Assembly: GCA_026415985.1 (NCBI GenBank)
Contig: JAOAGA010000070.1
Coordinates: 1 to 8,166, forward strand
DNA length: 8,166 nucleotides
DNA from: Pseudomonadota bacterium
GTDB taxonomy: Bacteria > CALINM01
Reading direction: 5' to 3'
Positions 1 through 8,166 of this stretch are shown here, piece by piece. Under the pieces are notes generated by a model. That model was not told the origin of the DNA. It searched no databases and saw nothing but the letters and a program-made list of their open reading frames with translations. The position numbers were made by a program, and so were the translations under genes. Each line of letters begins with the position of its first letter. Position 1 is the stretch's first letter.

Positions 1-734
1 TGCCAGAAGGTGGTGTAATAACCATCGAGACTTCTAATTATTATCTTGATAGAAGTTTTATTAAAATACACAAATATGGTCATGTCGGTGAATACGTAAG
101 AATAAGTATCTCCGATACAGGGTATGGAATACCTAAAGATATACAGGATAAAATTTTTGACCCCTTTTTTACTACTAAAGAACAAGGTAAAGGAACGGGG
201 CTCGGGCTTTCAATAGTATATAATATTATAAAGCAACACAACGGATATATTAATGTTTATAGCGAAGAAGGCATCGGAACAACCTTTAATATTTACCTGC
301 CTATATCCCAAGAAGAAGAGGTTAACAATTTTAATAGTGAAAAGGATTCAAGCTTTGTTTCTAAACTAAATATTAATATCCTCGTTGTAGATGACGACGA
401 GATGGTACTACATAGCCTTAAAAATTATCTTGAAACATTAGGTGCTCAGGTATTTACCGCAAGAAGCGGAAAGGAAGCCTTAGACTTTTTTGAAAAAAAT
501 TATAATAACACAGATTTATTAATATTAGATATAATTTTGCCTGATATAAACGGGCTTATTCTTTACAAAAAGATAAGGGAGATAAAGGAAGACATAAAGA
601 TAATCTTTATCAGCGGATACAATATCTCAGTTATCAAAGAGATTGAAGATATTGATTTTGATGTTCCTTTTATACAAAAGCCCTTGTCTATGACAAAGCT
701 CGTTGAACTGATTAATAAAATTACCTCTCAATAA
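1..734 (+). CDS. Hybrid sensor histidine kinase with C-terminal receiver (3' part, 5' end outside window)
   Basis: The reading frame is open from the left edge (first full codon at base 3) to the TAA at 732-734 and shows 243 residues. Visible residues 1-100 are the end of a HATPase_c domain: the strand after the missing N box ([10 protein letters not shown]), G1 box DTGYGIP (38-44), F box IFDPFFTTK (51-59) and G2 box GKGTGLGLS (62-70). A polar linker (about 101-123) leads to a CheY-like receiver with the acidic cluster DDD (130-132), phospho-acceptor Asp 176 (ILDIILPD), Ser 204 and Lys 226 (QKP). A start at the internal Met (base 402) would cut the receiver after its first strand, so the single fused frame is preferred. 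The sensor and DHp/His-box regions are not in the window, so the signal is unknown. It converges on the hydrogenase operon; a role in controlling it is only a positional guess. Confidence 0.93.
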
Positions 735-1170
735 TTTCTATGATCTTTTTCACGCAGGGTAAAACCAACTTTTCTAATCTTTCCGACAAATTCAGGGAGA
801 TATTGAAGTTATAACCCTTTGTTCCGACCACAAAACCTTTGACCTCCTTTTCATTAAGTCTTAATAAATCTATTACCTGATTGATATTTATATCATGAAC
901 TGTTTTGAATTTACCGCTTCCCTTTGAAAGTTCAGAAAGGGGGAAAACTTCGATAATACCATCAGTTCCCTTCTCAAATACATCAACAATAATAAAATCC
1001 CCTCCCCCAAGAAGCACTTCATATATCTGCCATGGAGAAGGGGTTGGAAGATAGTATAGCGTTACCTTCTTTTTAAAATCTATTTTTTTGAGCTCTTCTA
1101 AAACAAATAACCCAAAGGCATCATCGCCCATCAGGGGGTTGCCAAGTCCAACAACTTTATAGTTCATCAT
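721..1170 (-). CDS. hyaD: [NiFe] hydrogenase maturation protease (HyaD/HybD family, peptidase M52)
   Basis: 149 residues, a normal length for the family. These nickel-sensing endopeptidases act in the cytoplasm and remove the C-terminal tail of the hydrogenase large subunit once Ni is inserted, allowing the active site to close. The N-terminal signature [13 protein letters not shown] (8-20) is intact. The three residues matching the Ni/Cd ligands of E. coli HybD (Glu16, Asp62, His93) appear to be Asp17, Asp63 (IIVDVF) and His92 (TVHDIN). The start overlaps the cytochrome b stop in an ATGA arrangement, implying translational coupling; a second Met directly follows the first. It is the last gene of the hydrogenase operon, and its 3' end overlaps the convergent sensor kinase gene by 14 bases. 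The presumed substrate in this operon has an unusually short tail (see findings). Confidence 0.93.
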
Positions 1171-1862
1171 TTTTTCTTTAGAAACTTGTGCCCGCTAAAT
1201 ACTATTGAAATATCTCCTTCTTTCCAGAAAACCTCCCGCCAGATCTCGATGTAGATGTGAATTATTACAAAGAATATCATTAACCAAGCAATAAGGTGAT
1301 GGGCAATTCTTATATTGACGAGATTACCAAAGATTATGTAGGCTATCTGACCTGTATAATAAAAAACATACTGCCCGCCCGGAATGGCTGTATTTTCCGC
1401 ATTGATTTGGGGAGACAACATGGCAAATCCTGTAATCAGCATCAATGCCTTAAAAACTATGATAAACAAAAAGATACCCCATGCATTCAAGGCATCCATT
1501 CTGTCTTCATCACTTTCGGGTCTGTCCTTCATATCAAGAGTAAAATAGTGTTTAAGCATCTGTAATGCCTCTTTTCCTCTTTCTCTTAGGGGGAAGATGA
1601 ACTTAAAATATGGATGCCTACCGAAAAAGAAAAGATATATCCAGATTATTAAAATCACATCAAGAACTATTGCTCCCAAATAATGAATGAGCCTTACATA
1701 GCCCATAACATAGGAGTCAATAACCTCACCTGTTTCAAATACAAGAAAGGGGTGAGCTATATAAAAACCGGTAACAGCACAGGCGATAAAGGCAACAAAC
1801 ATTGCCCAATGGTTGAATCTTAAAAGCCCGTTCATTCTATATACACGTTTGAACTCTGACAT
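1167..1862 (-). CDS. hyaC: Ni/Fe-hydrogenase b-type cytochrome subunit
   Basis: 231 residues. This is the membrane diheme cytochrome b that anchors the hydrogenase dimer and passes electrons from its Fe-S chain to quinone. Four hydrophobic helices are visible at about 20-38, 60-80, 128-150 and 185-207. Histidines in or beside helices suit heme binding: His18 (RFNHW), His60 (RLIHY), His188/189 (RIAHH) and His202 (IIHIY). The loop at 81-127 is charged and presumably cytoplasmic. The start is supported by a strong ribosome-binding site, AGGAGG, six bases or so before the ATG. It lies 135 bases downstream of the large subunit gene, a larger gap than elsewhere in the operon, and overlaps the protease gene by 4 bases. 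The order small-large-cytochrome-protease matches known uptake hydrogenase operons such as those of Wolinella and E. coli hya. Confidence 0.95.
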   Translation of the reverse strand: MSEFKRVYRMNGLLRFNHWAMFVAFIACAVTGFYIAHPFLVFETGEVIDSYVMGYVRLIHYLGAIVLDVILIIWIYLFFFGRHPYFKFIFPLRERGKEALQMLKHYFTLDMKDRPESDEDRMDALNAWGIFLFIIVFKALMLITGFAMLSPQINAENTAIPGGQYVFYYTGQIAYIIFGNLVNIRIAHHLIAWLMIFFVIIHIYIEIWREVFWKEGDISIVFSGHKFLKKK

Positions 1863-1997
1863 TTAATACCTCCTGTTGTAAAAAATTATTCAGGTTAGGT
1901 TGTACCATGCAAGTGATAAATGACTATTAAATTGCTTAATTACGCCGTCATTTCCCTCTTATGAACGAATCAATTTCAATACCCATGATAAATAACA
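1863..1997. other. Intergenic gap inside the hydrogenase operon
   Basis: 135 bases between the large subunit stop and the cytochrome b start. I see the cytochrome ribosome-binding site at its left end, no convincing terminator or hairpin, and no credible small gene; only runs of about 12-20 codons are open here. With the operon's other gaps at 10 and -4 bases, this one is comparatively long. It would be where the rest of a normal large-subunit C-terminal tail might be sought if a frameshift were involved. Confidence 0.6.
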
Positions 1998-3644
1998 TCA
2001 TCTCCTTACAATATGGATAGCACAGGCAAGACATGGATCAAAGGAGTGGACAGTTCTTAGAACCTCAAGGGGCTGATCTTTGTTCACACAGGGATTTCCA
2101 ATCAAACTCTGTTCGCAGGGGCCTCTCTGACCCAAAGCATCCTTGGGAGAAAAATTCCATGTAGAGGGAACAATACATTGATAATTTTTAATCTTATAAT
2201 TTTCAATACTTACCCAATGACCTAAACCACCCCTTGGTGCTTCTATCAAGCCATAACCCATGGCCTCTTTTGGCATTGAATATTTGGTAAAGGTTTCCTC
2301 ATTAACCTTCAGATTGGCAACTAACTCACCAACCCATTTTTCCGCTGTATCGGCAAGCCATTTTGTCTCTATGCATCTTGCAGCAGTTCTGCCCAATGTT
2401 CCGAAAAGTGCTGATGCAGGTGCGTTTAGTGTCTTTAATGCGTAATCTACCAGAGCCTTTACTTCTTTATTACCGCTTGCATAGGCTATTAAAACTCTTG
2501 AGAGGGGGCCTACTTCCATAGGTTTATTGTCATATCTTGGTGCCTTTACCCAGCTATACTTATCGTTTTCTTTGCAAGATCCGTCATCATTTAGTCCTGT
2601 ATAGTTGGGCTCGGTAACACCATCTTTTGGATGGATTCCTTTGGTTTCATCTGAGTATTTATACCAAGAATGTTTAACATGTTCGGTAATCTTTTCAGGA
2701 TCAAACTTATGAACCTTTGATAAATCACCATTCAAGATTACGCCTGCAGGGAAGAATAAATTACTTCTGTCGGTATCATCGGAAAGTCTGAAATCACCAT
2801 ATGATAAATAATTTTTGTGTCCTGCTCCTACATTTTGAAGACCATACTCTTTGTAAACCTGTCCTGCAAGTAACAGATCGGGCAGATATGCGGTATCCAC
2901 AAACTCTTTCAGCTTTCTGAATCTAAACAAGATATCACCTATCCTCTTAGGATCCAATAAATCTTTAACACAGGTGACACCACCTACCACAAGACCCTGT
3001 GTATGTGGTTCCTTTCCGCCTAAGATTGCCATTATCTGTCCGCCGTATCTCTGAACCTCAAGGGCATCCAGATAGTGGGAAACAATTAAAAGCACCGCTT
3101 CTGGCGGAACTTTATAGGCACCATGTCCCCAGTAACCATTTGCAAAAGGTCCTAACTGACCGCTTTTAACAAGATTTTCAACCTTCTTTTTAACTTCGGC
3201 AAATCTTGCTCTACCCGCATTATAAGTTGAGCCAACAGAAAAGGCTAAATCTTCTGCCTTTTTCGGATCTGCCTGTAAAACCTTTGTTATATCAACCCAG
3301 TCAAGACCATGCAATATATAAAAATGAACAATGTGATCCATAATATACTGAGCTGATTTTATTAGGTTCCTGACAATTCTTGCGTTTTTTGGCGGAACAA
3401 TTTTAATGGCATTCTCAACAGCATGAATAGAAGCATCATAGTGAACATGAGTGCAGACACCACAAATCCTTTGGGTGAACATTCCTGCATCCCTCGGATC
3501 TCTTCCCTTTAAAATTATTTCAAATCCTCTGAACAAAGTCCCCGATGATAAAGCTTCTTTAACCTTACCGCCTTCCACCTCTACCTCAACTCTTAAATGT
3601 CCTTCTATTCTTGTAATTGGATCTATTATTGTTCTCTTAGCCAT
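1998..3644 (-). CDS. hyaB: [NiFe] hydrogenase large (catalytic) subunit, group 1 uptake type
   Basis: 548 residues. It carries the Ni-Fe(CN)2CO active site that splits H2; it is exported folded with the Tat-tagged small subunit. The N-terminal RIEGHLRVE motif (12-20) is present. The L1 motif RICGVCTHVH (59-68) supplies Cys61 and Cys64, and the L2 motif DPCLACAIH (536-544) supplies Cys538, Cys541 and His544. The conserved APRGGLGHW segment is also present. The start is clear: GGAGG lies 6 bases before the ATG and overlaps the small subunit's stop codon region. Cys rather than selenocysteine is encoded at the first L2 position. The oddity is the C-terminus: only IVRR follows His544, whereas proteolytically matured family members usually carry roughly 15 or more residues there. 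Otherwise the length and motifs look normal and the enzyme should be functional. Confidence 0.97.
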   Translation of the reverse strand: MAKRTIIDPITRIEGHLRVEVEVEGGKVKEALSSGTLFRGFEIILKGRDPRDAGMFTQRICGVCTHVHYDASIHAVENAIKIVPPKNARIVRNLIKSAQYIMDHIVHFYILHGLDWVDITKVLQADPKKAEDLAFSVGSTYNAGRARFAEVKKKVENLVKSGQLGPFANGYWGHGAYKVPPEAVLLIVSHYLDALEVQRYGGQIMAILGGKEPHTQGLVVGGVTCVKDLLDPKRIGDILFRFRKLKEFVDTAYLPDLLLAGQVYKEYGLQNVGAGHKNYLSYGDFRLSDDTDRSNLFFPAGVILNGDLSKVHKFDPEKITEHVKHSWYKYSDETKGIHPKDGVTEPNYTGLNDDGSCKENDKYSWVKAPRYDNKPMEVGPLSRVLIAYASGNKEVKALVDYALKTLNAPASALFGTLGRTAARCIETKWLADTAEKWVGELVANLKVNEETFTKYSMPKEAMGYGLIEAPRGGLGHWVSIENYKIKNYQCIVPSTWNFSPKDALGQRGPCEQSLIGNPCVNKDQPLEVLRTVHSFDPCLACAIHIVRR

Positions 3645-3654
3645 TTATGACCTC

Positions 3655-4839
3655 CTACTCTTCTTTTTCATGCTCGCTACAACACTCTTTGTTGTAGCCC
3701 TTTTTCTTGCCTTTAAAGTAACTATAAAAGGCATGAACGCCCATACCAACAGCGCTTATACCAATGAGAGTCCAACCAACATGGTCTGCTGTTGACTCAA
3801 CACCCGGTAGTATTCTTGCTTCTATTGGCTTTTCCAGGGGAGCCATTCTGTCCCAGAAGGCGGGTTCGCTACAGCCGATACAACCATGGCCAGCCTTAAT
3901 TGGTGATGCTATATCATCGTTCCAGCCCTGAATATTGCAGTTGTTATAGGTAAGAGGGCCTTTGCATCCAACTTTATATAAACAAAATCCCTTTTTTGCT
4001 CCCTCATCTCCCCACTCTCTGACAAACTCACCTGCATCAAAATGTGCCCTCCTTGGACAGGTATCGTGAATTCTTTTACCGTAAGCAAACAGAGGTCTTC
4101 CGCCCTTCGTTGTCGGGATCTTTCCGAAAAGTATAAAATAAAGTATTGTTCCAACAAGGCTTGCGCTGTTATAGGGGCATCCTGGAATTATAACCGAGTT
4201 TATGCCCAACGCATCGTTTATAGATTTTGACCCTGTAGGGTTTGGATAAGAGGCTTGGGGGCCACCATAGGATGCACAATGGCCAATTGATATTACCGCT
4301 GCGGCATCTTTTGTAACTTCCTTTGCCTTTTCTAAGCCTGTTACCGCTTTGCTTCCTACTCTTAAAAACTTACCATCCATTTTAGTGGGAATGGAACCTT
4401 CACAAATACAGATATATTTTCCTTTGTATTTTGCCATTGTATCTTTTAAGCTCTTTTCCGCTGACTCACCGGAAGGTGCCATAACAGTATCGTGGTAATC
4501 AAGAGACAGATACTGTAAAATTATCTCCGCAACACCGGGATTATTGGAACGAAGCAAAGATTCTGTGCAACCTGTACATTCTGCAAAATGAAGCCAGATA
4601 ACGGGAATTCGGCTGGCAATTTCTGCTGCCCTTGCCACTCTTTGTTCAAAAACAGGTGGTAGCATCATAGTAGCGCTCATAATAGCAGACCATTTAAGAA
4701 AACCTCTTCTGCTTATACCAGAAAAACTTAACCATTCCATAAAGCCCTTTCTCTCAGGATATTCTGCTTCAAGTTCTTCAAGGCGGGCATCGCATTTTTT
4801 CAGCAGGGACTTTAACTCTTTTTTGATTTTTTCCTCCAT
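3655..4839 (-). CDS. hyaA: [NiFe] hydrogenase small subunit, Tat-exported and membrane-anchored
   Basis: 394 residues. It relays electrons from the active site through three Fe-S clusters to cytochrome b. A twin-arginine signal SRRGFLK (43-49) sits after an unusually long charged N-region and is followed by a hydrophobic stretch, with likely cleavage near VARAA (68-72). Proximal cluster ligands are Cys88, Cys91 (ECTGC), Cys188 and Cys221. Distal ligands are His258, Cys261, Cys286 and Cys292. Medial ligands are Cys301, Cys320 and Cys323, with Pro313 in the usual non-ligand place, so a [3Fe-4S] cluster. Gly occupies both positions (90 and 193) that hold the two extra Cys of oxygen-tolerant enzymes, predicting a standard [4Fe-4S] proximal cluster. 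One helix at about 353-374 anchors the C-terminus, followed by a Lys/Cys/Glu-rich tail. A purine-rich GGGAGGG precedes the start. First gene of its operon. Confidence 0.97.
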   Translation of the reverse strand: MEEKIKKELKSLLKKCDARLEELEAEYPERKGFMEWLSFSGISRRGFLKWSAIMSATMMLPPVFEQRVARAAEIASRIPVIWLHFAECTGCTESLLRSNNPGVAEIILQYLSLDYHDTVMAPSGESAEKSLKDTMAKYKGKYICICEGSIPTKMDGKFLRVGSKAVTGLEKAKEVTKDAAAVISIGHCASYGGPQASYPNPTGSKSINDALGINSVIIPGCPYNSASLVGTILYFILFGKIPTTKGGRPLFAYGKRIHDTCPRRAHFDAGEFVREWGDEGAKKGFCLYKVGCKGPLTYNNCNIQGWNDDIASPIKAGHGCIGCSEPAFWDRMAPLEKPIEARILPGVESTADHVGWTLIGISAVGMGVHAFYSYFKGKKKGYNKECCSEHEKEE

Positions 4840-4863
4840 AATCCCTCCCCTTTTTTAAAGTAT

Positions 4864-4899
4864 TATTTTGAATAAATCACAAAAAAAACAAAAAGTCAA
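4864..4899 (-). promoter_or_regulatory. Candidate sigma-70-type promoter for the hydrogenase operon
   Basis: Reading the minus strand, TTGACT (4899-4894) is followed 17 bases later by TTTATT (4876-4871). That gives a five of six match at -35 and four of six at -10, with ideal spacing. Transcription would begin near 4864, leaving a leader of about 25 bases that holds the GGGAGGG ribosome-binding site. The whole gap is very AT-rich, so chance matches are likely. I saw no clear sigma-54 (GG-N10-GC) element here. Confidence 0.4.
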
Positions 4900-4900
4900 G

Positions 4901-5060
4901 TTAAATATAAAACATTGTTTTTTATTTAATTATTTTTTTTTAGGATAATAACTATCTGAAAAAATGAACTTTAATAAATTATAAAACCTGATTGTTCTAT
5001 AGTTACATTAGAAAAAATTATTATAAATAAAATAGTGTTTTGTTTATTATTTTGGTTACA
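4901..5060. other. AT-rich intergenic DNA upstream of the hydrogenase promoter
   Basis: About 160 bases of very AT-rich sequence with several A and T runs and no credible open reading frame. Regulator binding sites for the hydrogenase operon would be expected here, but I could not identify a convincing dyad or repeat. Confidence 0.5.
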
Positions 5061-5088
5061 AAAAAAGAGGGAGATACCCCTCTTTTTT
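5061..5088 (-). terminator. Intrinsic terminator of the flavoprotein operon
   Basis: An 11-base-pair perfect stem (5061-5071 with 5078-5088) encloses a 6-base loop. The core is GAGGG/CCCTC flanked by A and T runs. On the minus strand this gives a stable hairpin ending in a run of six U, starting about 40 bases after the flavoprotein stop codon. The A/T symmetry means it could also act in the other direction. It separates the flavoprotein operon from the hydrogenase operon. Confidence 0.9.
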
Positions 5089-5128
5089 AATACTTAATAT
5101 GATAAGCATTTAGCTAATTTTTAAGATA

Positions 5129-6799
5129 CTATCTCAGTGTTCCGAAATATTTTGAGGTTTTTTCTTTAGCCTTTACCTCATCTCTTATATAATCAGGAAG
5201 GATCATCGGCGATATCCTGTCAGTAACAATGCCTGCATCGGAGATTTCCTTTTCGTATTTTTCAACGTGACTTAAGGTTAAATCTGCAAGTTTTATGTCT
5301 CTTATATATTGAGATGCCGAAAGTCCCGCCCTTCTTCCAAAGACAAGTATATCAAGAAGTGAGTTACCCATAAGTCTGTTTCTTCCATGAACACCACCTG
5401 AAACCTCTCCTGCACTGTATAGTCCCGGTATCTCAGTCATGGCATTTTCATCCATCCAGAGACCTCCGTTTTGGTAATGAACAGTTGGGAATATTAGCAT
5501 AGGCTCTTTAGATATATCAATGCCATGTCTTATAAACTGAATGTATTTTGCAGGTAGCTCTCTTTTTACTGTTCCTTCCCCTTCCAACATATCAATCATC
5601 GGTGAGTCTAACCAAACTCCTACTCTGCCTGTTGGAGTGATAATGCCGTTACCTCTCTCTGTGCACTCTCTGATAATACAGGCAGATTCTACATCTCTTG
5701 GCTCTAGGGGAAATACAAACTCTTCTCCCTTAACATTCAAAAGCGTTGCCCCAAGCCCTCTGACCTTTTCAGTTATTAGAAGACCGACATTTTGTTCAGG
5801 ATAGACGACGCCTGTTGGATGATACTGAACAGAATCCATATATCTTAATTTAACGCCTGCCCTATAAGCCATAACTATTCCGTCTGCGGTAGCACCGTAA
5901 TGGTTTGTGCATGGAAAGCCGTTAAAATGTAATCTGCCAAAGCCACCTGTCGCCATAATTACTGCCTTGGCTTTAACAATATAATACTCTTCTGTCTCAA
6001 GATTATACAAAATGGCACCTGCACATCTGCCGTTTGAGTCAAGAACAAGCTCAACCGCGGGAGAAAACTCAATAACATCAATATTATCTGAGAGGTTTCT
6101 TACCTCATCTCTTAAAACTCTCATTATCTCTGAACCGGTCATATCTCCACAGGAGTGCATTCTTTTTCTGCAGGTTCCGCCACCGTGTCTAACCTTCATC
6201 CTGCCATCGGGATATTTATCAAACATCATGCCTAAGCTCTCAAGCCAATGGGCGATAATTGGAGCATCTTTGGTAAGGGCCGATACAATCTTTCGGTCAT
6301 TTAGAAAATGACCACCACCCATGGTATCAAGAAAATGGTAGTAGGGAGAGTCTACTTCTTGGTCGGCAGCCTGAATTCCACCTTCTGCCATGACCGTATT
6401 GGCATCACCATGTCTTAATTTAGTTGCAAGTATTACCTTACAACCTTCTTTGGCAGACATAATAGCTGCCGATGAACCTGCACCACCACCGCCGATCACA
6501 AGAACATCGGTTTCCATGTCGGGATTTTTTAAATCAAAGTCCTTTGGGTTAATCCTGCTGTGGGCCTCTAACAAATCTGCTAATTCATTGGGAAAATACT
6601 GACCTTTGTCGGGACCAACATTTACAACCCTTTTAGTGCCTTCCATATAGTCGGGATGAAATTTTGATAAAACTTCCTTTCTCTGATCCATAGTAAGGGG
6701 CTTAAAAGTTTCTCCTCTTCTTACCCTTTCTACTCTTTCTGCCCTTGACTTTTCAACCAATTTTATAGACTCTCTTAAACTTTCAGGATAGCCAGACAT
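5129..6799 (-). CDS. frdA: Fumarate reductase/succinate dehydrogenase-family flavoprotein (atypical)
   Basis: 556 residues. The family interconverts fumarate and succinate with FAD. A Rossmann FAD motif (IGGGGAGSS, 102-110) is followed by ANTVMAEGGIQ (133-143), which aligns with the covalent-FAD segment SHTVxAxGG but has Asn134 where the FAD-linked His is expected. Counterparts of the E. coli FrdA active-site residues are present: His327 (YHPTG), Glu344 and Arg347 (TEKVRG), Arg368 (PRD, the proton donor), His441 (PTVHY) and Arg475 (GRNRL). A charged extension of about 95 residues precedes the FAD domain, and only about 65 residues follow GRRAG (488-492), so the C-terminal domain of the 600-residue FrdA/SdhA proteins is largely missing. 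No Tat or Sec signal is seen, so it is probably cytoplasmic. AAGGAG lies 7 bases before the ATG. Last gene before the terminator. The exact substrate is unproven; another unsaturated acid cannot be excluded. Confidence 0.88.
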   Translation of the reverse strand: MSGYPESLRESIKLVEKSRAERVERVRRGETFKPLTMDQRKEVLSKFHPDYMEGTKRVVNVGPDKGQYFPNELADLLEAHSRINPKDFDLKNPDMETDVLVIGGGGAGSSAAIMSAKEGCKVILATKLRHGDANTVMAEGGIQAADQEVDSPYYHFLDTMGGGHFLNDRKIVSALTKDAPIIAHWLESLGMMFDKYPDGRMKVRHGGGTCRKRMHSCGDMTGSEIMRVLRDEVRNLSDNIDVIEFSPAVELVLDSNGRCAGAILYNLETEEYYIVKAKAVIMATGGFGRLHFNGFPCTNHYGATADGIVMAYRAGVKLRYMDSVQYHPTGVVYPEQNVGLLITEKVRGLGATLLNVKGEEFVFPLEPRDVESACIIRECTERGNGIITPTGRVGVWLDSPMIDMLEGEGTVKRELPAKYIQFIRHGIDISKEPMLIFPTVHYQNGGLWMDENAMTEIPGLYSAGEVSGGVHGRNRLMGNSLLDILVFGRRAGLSASQYIRDIKLADLTLSHVEKYEKEISDAGIVTDRISPMILPDYIRDEVKAKEKTSKYFGTLR

Positions 6800-6880
6800 C
6801 TTATCACTCCTTCTATTTTTATTTATTAGGTTAGTGCAGTTTTTTCATTATTTCAGCATCTCTTTGGAGTAACCTATAAT
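6800..6880 (-). other. Spacer between the Fe-S subunit and flavoprotein genes, with a short inverted repeat
   Basis: The 81-base gap holds the flavoprotein ribosome-binding site (AAGGAG near 6807-6812) and a 7-base inverted repeat, TAGGTTA at 6827-6833 and TAACCTA at 6870-6876, with 36 bases between the arms. The stem would be weak, with no U run after it, so it does not look like a terminator. The two genes are most likely cotranscribed. Confidence 0.45.
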
Positions 6881-7651
6881 CTATAAAAACCTTTCATCTT
6901 GAGGCTTCCAGCCAATATCTCTTGAGTTTAAAGGTTCCCATTCTCTCTCTTCAACATATCTTCTCTTTAACTCTTCGTCACTTAACTCAGTGAGTTCTTT
7001 CATAAACTTATCGTATTTTCCTGAATTAATTTCCTGAACCCTTGCTTTTAGATGATTAGCCCTTTTATATATTTTTGCTCCTGTAAGTCTCCTTGCAAAC
7101 ATCGCCACATTATAATGGGTAATCTGTGCAGGACAGCGAGATGTACAAAGACCACACATGATACAATCAAGAGAAAGTTTTGCACACCTTTCAATATCCC
7201 CTCTTATGGCACAGTTAATGTAATCCATAACCTTAATATCCATAGGACATGCTCTTGTGCAGGTGTTACAGCCAACACATTTCAAAATCTCAGGATAGTT
7301 TGCAATCATAGTTTCTGCGGTAGGTTCAGAATTCTCTACATCATGGTATTTTCTTTTATAAGGATAAAATGGTATCTGAGCAAGAACCATATCTTCTTTT
7401 ACTACTGTCTGACAGGCAAGACCGAAATACAACTTATGGTCGCCCATTATTCTGTAAACGGTAGCACAGGCACCACATATGCCGCCTCTGCATCCACAGC
7501 CTCTAATCCACTGATAGCCTGCATACTCAAAGGCTTTCTGAATAGTTAGTGTCTCTGGAACCATATACCTTTTACCCATTATATAAACGGGTATCATCTT
7601 TGTATTTTCCGGTATAACCGGCTTATCTCCCGTAAGCAAAATTCCCTTCAT
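6881..7651 (-). CDS. frdB: Fumarate reductase/succinate dehydrogenase-like iron-sulfur subunit, 2Fe-2S plus two 4Fe-4S
   Basis: 256 residues, close to the usual FrdB/SdhB length. The N-terminal half is a ferredoxin-like fold with a [2Fe-2S] set Cys54, Cys59, Cys62 and Cys80 (GCRGGICGAC), plus an additional Cys52. The C-terminal half has two full four-Cys motifs, CVGCNTCTRACP (125-136) and CIMCGLCTSRCP (163-174), so two [4Fe-4S] clusters are predicted rather than the [4Fe-4S] plus [3Fe-4S] pair of canonical SdhB/FrdB. A charged tail (about 190-256) follows. No HdrB-like CCG domain is fused, unlike TfrB of methanogens. GGAGG precedes the start by 9 bases; Met19 is a weaker alternative. It sits 81 bases upstream of the flavoprotein gene and should pass electrons between the flavin and an upstream partner, perhaps the Fe-S protein encoded before it. 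Subunit identity is firm; the redox partner is inferred. Confidence 0.88.
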   Translation of the reverse strand: MKGILLTGDKPVIPENTKMIPVYIMGKRYMVPETLTIQKAFEYAGYQWIRGCGCRGGICGACATVYRIMGDHKLYFGLACQTVVKEDMVLAQIPFYPYKRKYHDVENSEPTAETMIANYPEILKCVGCNTCTRACPMDIKVMDYINCAIRGDIERCAKLSLDCIMCGLCTSRCPAQITHYNVAMFARRLTGAKIYKRANHLKARVQEINSGKYDKFMKELTELSDEELKRRYVEEREWEPLNSRDIGWKPQDERFL

Positions 7652-7687
7652 TTCCGATAACCTCCATATATTTTATAAAAATTAAAT

Positions 7688-7754
7688 AAGTAAGAGATTG
7701 GTTTGCCAGCCAATAAGTGGTATATTAAACTAAACTTGCCTTCATCTCTTACTT
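7688..7754 (-). repeat. Perfect 11-base inverted repeat between the two Fe-S genes
   Basis: AAGTAAGAGAT (7688-7698) is the exact reverse complement of ATCTCTTACTT (7744-7754), with 45 bases between. A second small hairpin, ATTGG/CCAAT (7697-7701 with 7710-7714), overlaps the left arm by two bases. In minus-strand RNA the element starts about 30 bases after the upstream gene's stop and is followed by AUUUAAUUUUUAU, then the ribosome-binding site of the next gene. It could be a leaky terminator, an RNA stability or processing stem, or a paired regulator site. The long loop argues against a plain intrinsic terminator. Confidence 0.6.
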
Positions 7755-7783
7755 TTTTACTGTTTAGCATTTTCTATTATAAA

Positions 7784-8166
7784 TTATATTTTATCCAGTT
7801 CCTTCTCTCTGAACGTTGCAACGGGCAATTCTTCCTCGAAGCTTCTTCCAGCTTCATAATCAAATATTTTCTGTGTTTCCTCGCCTATAAATGCAAAAAT
7901 CCTTGTGAGTTTTATCTTTGAAGGACAAGAGCTTTCACACATACCGCAGGAGACACAAGAAGTGCTCATATGATTTAGTCTTGTCAGATGAAAGATTAAG
8001 GTATCTGAAGGCAATCTAACCTCCCCTTTTCTCTCGAGCCAGATGTTATAACTATCTGAAGGATTATCAAACACAGGTGACCTGAAGACACATTCTTTAC
8101 AATAATCCATTGGGCAGTTGACCATACAGTTATGACATCTGATACACCCGTCAAGTTCCCTTATAA
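7784..8166 (-). CDS. FdhB/FrhB-like ferredoxin-type iron-sulfur protein (C-terminal part, 5' end outside window)
   Basis: The frame is open to the right edge and ends in TAA at 7786-7784, showing 126 residues. A start at the Met encoded at 8125-8123 would cut through a cluster motif, because the frame continues upstream with CIRCHNCMVNCP (visible 7-18); the gene therefore begins beyond the window. That motif gives one [4Fe-4S] cluster and is closely followed by YCKEC (Cys22, Cys25). A second motif, CVSCGMCESSCP (70-81), gives another. The spacing, the intervening FHLTRLNHMSTSC segment and the tail with FDYEAGR recall the C-terminal half of the FdhB/FrhB-type subunits of formate dehydrogenases and F420 hydrogenases, and HdrC/RnfC-like modules. 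Lying upstream on the same strand as the FrdB-like gene, with a 132-base gap, it is a candidate electron-transfer partner of the flavoprotein. The family call is by pattern only. Confidence 0.75.
   Translation of the reverse strand, partial: IRELDGCIRCHNCMVNCPMDYCKECVFRSPVFDNPSDSYNIWLERKGEVRLPSDTLIFHLTRLNHMSTSCVSCGMCESSCPSKIKLTRIFAFIGEETQKIFDYEAGRSFEEELPVATFREKELDKI

Follow-up and report, generated by a model that had tools for sequence, protein, structure and literature searches.

A complex containing HdrABC, FlxABCD, KorABCD, and TfrAB, with the same electron flow as that considered below, was proposed for tubeworm symbionts and Thioflavicoccus, with T. mobilis carrying tfrAB in a cluster of this type (Rubin-Blum et al., 2019; PMC6315080). 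A hydrogenase version was described in Cloacimonadota in 2021 (PMC8542988), a 2024 study of the Endoriftia symbiont of Riftia found the cluster co-expressed except for tfrAB (PMC11636981), and in Thiomargarita a frdA/sdhA gene lies beside hdrA and mvhD (PMC4914600). The locus examined here lies on an 8,166-nucleotide contig of a Pseudomonadota bacterium; this entire contig (contig C129 of genome G000, positions 1-8166) is the window. Its minus strand carries, in transcription order, the 3′ end of an frhB/fdhB-like gene, a tfrB-like gene, a tfrA-like gene, and a terminator-like hairpin, each where a preliminary description of the window had placed it. With a probability of roughly 65%, tfrBA encode the fumarate-reducing arm of a soluble, heterodisulfide-reductase-type, electron-splitting complex that couples fumarate reduction to ferredoxin reduction. 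The sequences show the subunit make-up, as read in a sister genome, and the conservation of the active site, the cluster ligands, and the gene linkage; a single complex, bifurcation at HdrA, the direction of the reaction, and the identity of the donor are what we infer.

The tfrA-like gene (5129-6799) encodes a 556-residue, FrdA-type flavoprotein that binds flavin adenine dinucleotide (FAD) and bears an N-terminal extension and a shortened C-terminus. The 256-residue product of the tfrB-like gene (6881-7651) combines a [2Fe-2S] with two [4Fe-4S] cysteine sets and has neither a CCG domain nor a membrane segment. Only the final 126 codons of the frhB/fdhB-like gene (7784-8164) are present, its 5′ part being missing at the contig end; they include the two FdhB-type 4Fe-4S sets. 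A hydrophobic segment is absent from all three proteins (maximum KD19 0.59, 0.96, and 1.18, vs. 2.64 for the hydrogenase cytochrome b). The earlier suggestion of a fumarate-reductase-type enzyme that is soluble and partnered by an FdhB/FrhB-like protein is supported.

Genes past position 8166 are unreadable from the window itself. Orthologues occur in two genomes of the same family at 88-89% identity, and the upstream genes were read in one of these (G002, contig JAOABK010000002.1, loci L016 and L096; flavoprotein 89% identical). There, a single array runs mdh-fumA-fumB-sdhC-sdhA-sdhB-hdrC-hdrB-hdrA (649 residues)-hdrC-hdrB-hdrA2 (860 residues)-mvhD-frhB (368 residues)-tfrB-tfrA, such that eight genes, namely two hdrCB pairs, hdrA, hdrA2, mvhD, and frhB, separate sdhCAB from tfrBA. 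The preliminary description had proposed to look beyond the contig end for HdrA-type or membrane subunits, and the sister array holds both. Contig C84 of the window's own genome repeats mdh-fumAB-sdhCAB-hdrC-hdrB and ends after the first 134 codons of hdrA, while C129 starts inside frhB; from the sister synteny, about 6.7 kb is predicted between them, in which the remainder of hdrA through frhB would be located. A piecewise contig search of this genome did not find HdrA2, which is attributed to the assembly gap, and revealed only one other Hdr place, on contig C93. The latter holds a second HdrA and MvhD (L109:2000-2560 and 5383-5850) in which TGA codons stand in frame exactly where cysteines are conserved (ECSI-U-ILSP in HdrA and CYW-U in MvhD), the pattern that selenocysteine-containing forms would show.

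The linkage of tfrBA to Hdr genes extends far beyond this family. A survey collected 80 loci encoding a relative of TfrA (56-89% identity) from named genomes of about 14 phyla, an approximate figure taken from the labels of metagenome-assembled genomes (MAGs). In the 37 loci with wide flanks, defined as at least 8 kb upstream and at least 5 kb downstream, tfrB adjoins tfrA in 36, and the genes nearby on the same strand include HdrA (34/37), HdrB (33/37), MvhD (33/37), and KorABC, a 2-oxoglutarate:ferredoxin oxidoreductase (26/37). The comparison of conserved neighborhoods called for in the preliminary description thus finds tfrBA with HdrABC-MvhD in most wide-flank relatives. What varies is the donor module. 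Across the 80 loci, 39 carry an NAD(P)H-binding pair of the sulfhydrogenase type (HydB/HydG), eight a VhuG/VhuA module of the group-3c-type NiFe hydrogenase, and nine an FrhB-like gene without either; the 24 loci showing no donor module are not a count of donor-less systems, since tfrBA in many of them lies close to a contig end. On a quick tree, donor states changed at least six times. In one locus (L042), a NuoF-like gene adjoins HdrA. The MAGs of the Gallionella/Sideroxydans group (L087, L073, L079, and other Gallionellaceae loci) display the full tfrBA-hdrCB-korDABC-hdrA-mvhD-frhB-hydBG set, with a 177-residue protein between tfrA and hdrC.

In the proposed mechanism, a cytosolic two-electron donor would deliver electrons through FrhB, MvhD, and HdrA2, to be split at the FAD of HdrA. 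The high-potential branch would pass through HdrC/HdrB and TfrB, a path made entirely of Fe-S clusters, to the non-covalent FAD of TfrA, where fumarate would be reduced to succinate, while the remaining electrons from HdrA would reduce ferredoxin. The oxaloacetate-malate-fumarate-succinate branch of the reductive tricarboxylic acid (TCA) cycle, for which mdh and fumAB lie in the same operon, would thereby be coupled to ferredoxin reduction. In the window's lineage, NAD(P)H is the most likely donor, as a best guess. Coenzyme F420, one of the soluble donors entertained in the preliminary description, is unlikely, because the F420 ligase (PF01996) is absent from the three family genomes (G000, G001, and G002; 84-92% complete) and was detected in three archaeal controls. 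Arithmetic on standard potentials yields -33 to -48 kJ per fumarate with NADH and -69 to -85 kJ with H2; two NADH reducing fumarate together with a ferredoxin at -500 mV correspond to -33 kJ per fumarate. The L016/L096 cluster contains no KorABCD, and distant 2-oxoacid oxidoreductases occur elsewhere in the genome. A search for ATP-citrate lyase returned no match even in control genomes and is hence uninformative.

TfrA itself belongs to the fumarate reductase/succinate dehydrogenase flavoprotein superfamily, with both the FrdA fold and the catalytic His/Arg/Glu set present. It matches FAD_binding_2 (PF00890) with 271 bits, and its best NCBIfam match is the methanogen TfrA (359.6 bits, below the cut-off of 718). 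In its predicted model (pLDDT 85.7), the nearest structures by Z are the flavocytochrome c3 fumarate reductases and Escherichia coli FrdA (Z 36-38), which barely cover residues 1-74. Across an alignment of 82 family members, the equivalents of FrdA H232, E245, R248, R287, H355, and R390 are invariant (82/82). That fumarate or succinate is the substrate is suggested by the neighbors, as SucCD, FumAB, and Mdh are encoded nearby. The family departs from SdhA at both ends and at the flavin. Roughly 100 residues precede the FAD motif vs. 13 in SdhA, and about 81 follow the last catalytic Arg vs. 192. The extension, at codons 1-93 (6521-6799), is conserved within the family (L44, H48, P49, D50, G62, and E78 are invariant in 46 sequences) and missing from the SdhA paralogues. 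Codon 134 (6398-6400) specifies an Asn in place of the His that links FAD covalently in SdhA and FrdA; the replacement holds in all 82 members, while the three SdhA paralogues aligned for contrast all retain the His, and alignments to Protein Data Bank structures agree.

This substitution bears directly on the direction of the reaction. A quinol:fumarate reductase without the covalent FAD link keeps fumarate reduction and loses succinate oxidation, and flavocytochrome c3 is unidirectional. By the same logic, the missing link probably favors fumarate reduction over succinate oxidation in TfrA. The opposite course, confurcation, would have succinate and reduced ferredoxin oxidized together, with the electrons passing to NAD+, protons, or another carrier, and would permit succinate oxidation in an oxidative TCA cycle. 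The gene set would be identical, the Kor and SucCD enzymes of these clusters run both ways, and the hydrogenase of the Cloacimonadota clusters makes H2 release thinkable. Nonetheless, this direction is unlikely given the invariant Asn and the unidirectional nearest structure; moreover, a separate SdhCAB in the same operon, with its His intact, could oxidize succinate.

TfrB matches the Pfam Fer4 and Fer2 domains, has no CCG match in its 256 residues, and scores 27 bits against a methanogen TfrB cut-off of 385. Its four [2Fe-2S] and eight [4Fe-4S] ligand cysteines are kept in all 79 sequences (79/79), giving two complete [4Fe-4S] sets unlike the [3Fe-4S] pattern of the quinone-facing FrdB. The best solved relatives of the window's FrhB/FdhB-like fragment are FdhB chains of archaeal FdhAB-HdrABC complexes (9t1s_M, E = 4.8e-14; 7bkb_E, 2.6e-10). 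Its full-length homologue in the sister (L016:8014-9120, 368 residues) combines PF04432 with a 4Fe-4S dicluster, reaches 9t1s_M by phmmer with E = 1.3e-31, and yields a model that matches the FdhB 7bkb_E with a TMq of 0.75. The FrhB cluster cysteines are invariant in 41 sequences. FrhB proteins fall into two subclasses: the window type (about 31-37% identity to L016) and that of HydB/HydG clusters (22-26%).

The Hdr subunits supply what the preliminary description, in raising the possibility of bifurcation, could not see: a context capable of it. HdrA (HdrA1 of the sister) aligns over its full length with the bifurcating Methanothermococcus HdrA (5ODC_A, 686 bits), and the ligand cysteines of HdrC, MvhD, HdrA, and FrhB are kept in nearly all sequences. 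The features of a bifurcation-type HdrABC-MvhD module, including the FAD domain of HdrA, are present in the sister and the relatives; of these subunits, the window's own genome as assembled contains only HdrC, HdrB, and the beginning of HdrA. HdrA2 (L016:4979-7561) has an unusual flavin layout, pairing two FAD-domain halves with a single ferredoxin domain at the C-terminus, and archaeal HdrA matched it in separate stretches only. Both CCG motifs, the disulfide site of archaeal HdrB, are present in 52/52 HdrB1 and 4/4 HdrB2 sequences. This retention could serve a thiol-type fumarate reductase without bifurcation, in which HdrB would take electrons from a thiol pair, supplied by a DsrC-like protein or a small thiol, and pass them to TfrBA, leaving HdrA-MvhD for another purpose. 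Indeed, a DsrC route was named as an alternative by Rubin-Blum et al. (PMC6315080). Such an arrangement is likewise improbable: coenzymes M and B are not expected in bacteria, and HdrA, whose FAD domain and cluster ligands are intact, accompanies tfrBA in 34 of the 37 wide-flank loci.

The membrane SdhCAB encoded in the same array invites two further proposals. Conceivably, and at rather low odds, it and the soluble Tfr-Hdr complex would work as a pair: Tfr-Hdr would reduce fumarate with NAD(P)H and SdhCAB would re-oxidize the succinate with menaquinone, so that fumarate and succinate would shuttle electrons and the quinone pool would be the soluble complex's high-potential sink for ferredoxin reduction. 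Alternatively, TfrBA might dock directly on SdhC or another quinone subunit to form a second quinol:fumarate reductase. The preliminary description saw no cytochrome b or CCG-type gene, which is true of the window; the upstream sister array, however, includes the cytochrome b gene sdhC and two hdrB genes. An anchor gene upstream in the same operon, the finding that description named as fatal to a soluble complex, is thus literally present. But sdhC leads into an sdhA and an sdhB of its own, the former a paralogue that retains the FAD-linking His, and no anchor gene stands next to tfrBA in either window or sister. Besides, sdh genes occur near tfrBA in just 1/80 loci, that of the window's lineage, almost every wide-flank relative has tfrBA together with Hdr genes, and TfrB has two full [4Fe-4S] sets and no membrane segments, which makes docking on SdhC very improbable. 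Least credible of all, TfrA would be an L-aspartate oxidase or another enoate reductase, a notion that draws on its non-covalent FAD site and on scores to L-aspartate oxidase similar to those for SdhA, and that founders on the TCA-enzyme neighbors (mdh, fumAB, sucCD, and kor) and on L-aspartate oxidase having no partner Fe-S and Hdr subunits.

Several observations count against the bifurcating Tfr-Hdr complex itself. A search of the open-access literature, which omits most subscription papers, found no purified or biochemically characterized complex of this type, and in the Riftia symbiont tfrAB expression departs from that of the rest of the cluster (PMC11636981). The L016/L096 cluster carries no HydB/HydG gene for an FlxA/FlxB-type NAD(P)H module, and only weak matches (29-31%) occur elsewhere in the genome. 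The middle of the operon, from the rest of hdrA to frhB, is unassembled in the window's own genome and is predicted from synteny. Finally, frhB and tfrB are separated by a 132-bp spacer (7652-7783, minus strand), where both sister genomes have about 20 bp. A gap of this length could accommodate a separate transcript, such that co-transcription of frhB and tfrB in the window genome is not certain. The spacer can form a long imperfect hairpin, which is non-significant (z -1.5) and occurs as a single, unrepeated copy in the genome.

On its 3′ side, tfrA is followed by a terminator-like hairpin with a U tract (5061-5088, minus strand), where an 89-nucleotide stretch folds at -20 kcal/mol (z -4.2). 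A simple promoter and terminator scan of the window gave nothing above chance and did not list this hairpin, and an Rfam search of the window found no match. An origin of the tfrBA locus by chance or artefact was considered and rejected, as reading frames, motifs, and synteny are all conserved. Directly past the terminator lies a NiFe hydrogenase cluster on the minus strand (721-4839; small subunit, large subunit, cytochrome b, and maturation protease), whose small subunit has a Tat-like motif after about 40 additional N-terminal residues; converging on it from the plus strand is the 3′ end of a hybrid histidine kinase with a receiver domain (3-734). In the sister, a gene for a 456-residue fumarase/aspartase-like protein takes the place of the hydrogenase cluster beside tfrA. 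Other genes downstream of tfrA, named by eye from sequence, resemble malic enzyme in L051 (11827-13278) and L064 (15203-16657) and aldehyde ferredoxin oxidoreductase in L076 (11681-13441), a Spirochaetaceae MAG.

A 2023 paper (PMC10052474) regards the source of low-potential ferredoxin in reductive-TCA bacteria as unresolved. If real, a fumarate reductase whose turnover pays for the reduction of ferredoxin would offer one solution and link two reactions of a single pathway. The survey places the TfrBA family with HdrABC-MvhD, and with interchangeable donor modules, across about 14 phyla and provides family-wide marks that separate TfrA from SdhA (the Asn at the flavin site, the N-terminal extension, and the shortened C-terminus); the proposal thus becomes testable in cultivated hosts.

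Among described systems, the locus resembles several and coincides with none. It shares with the Hdr-Flx-Kor-Tfr complex (PMC6315080) both the proposed electron split to fumarate and ferredoxin and the assembly of TfrAB, HdrABC, and MvhD/FlxD in a reductive-TCA cluster, as one array in the sister and in two pieces across an assembly gap in its own genome. Unlike that complex, the window's lineage lacks FlxA/B (HydG/HydB) as well as KorABCD in the cluster, and instead has a second HdrCB pair, an 860-residue HdrA2 with two FAD domains, an FdhB-type FrhB of the other subclass, and mdh-fumAB-sdhCAB in the operon. The TFR-OGOR-fumarase-SCS-Mvh(3c)-Hdr cluster of Ca. Celaenobacter (Cloacimonadota; PMC8542988; L067) likewise unites TfrAB, HdrABC, MvhD, and TCA genes around the same flavoprotein family, but its donor is a group-3c NiFe hydrogenase, of which the window's cluster has none. 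The methanogen thiol:fumarate reductase TfrAB (NF004900 and NF004898) is also soluble and linked to CCG chemistry; the window's proteins score under both curated cut-offs, have the CCG domain on a separate HdrB, and carry the extra N-terminal extension. The methanogen MvhADG-HdrABC and FdhAB-HdrABC complexes share HdrA, HdrB, HdrC, MvhD, and an FdhB-type subunit, whereas the window's cluster has neither FdhA nor a hydrogenase, and fumarate would replace the heterodisulfide as the high-potential sink. The NADH-dependent FrdABCDE of Hydrogenobacter and Aquifex is another soluble FrdA/FrdB-type enzyme of the reductive TCA cycle, set apart here by its description rather than its sequence, as the published table gives FrdD as nox and lists no Hdr subunits (PMC10052474). 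Membrane quinol:fumarate reductases and succinate dehydrogenases differ in their covalent FAD His, which TfrA lacks, and in an anchor gene, which does not adjoin tfrBA. The general scheme is thus already proposed (2019; PMC6315080) and was extended in 2021 and 2024; what is new is an arrangement that has no NADH or H2 module and shares its operon with a membrane SdhCAB.

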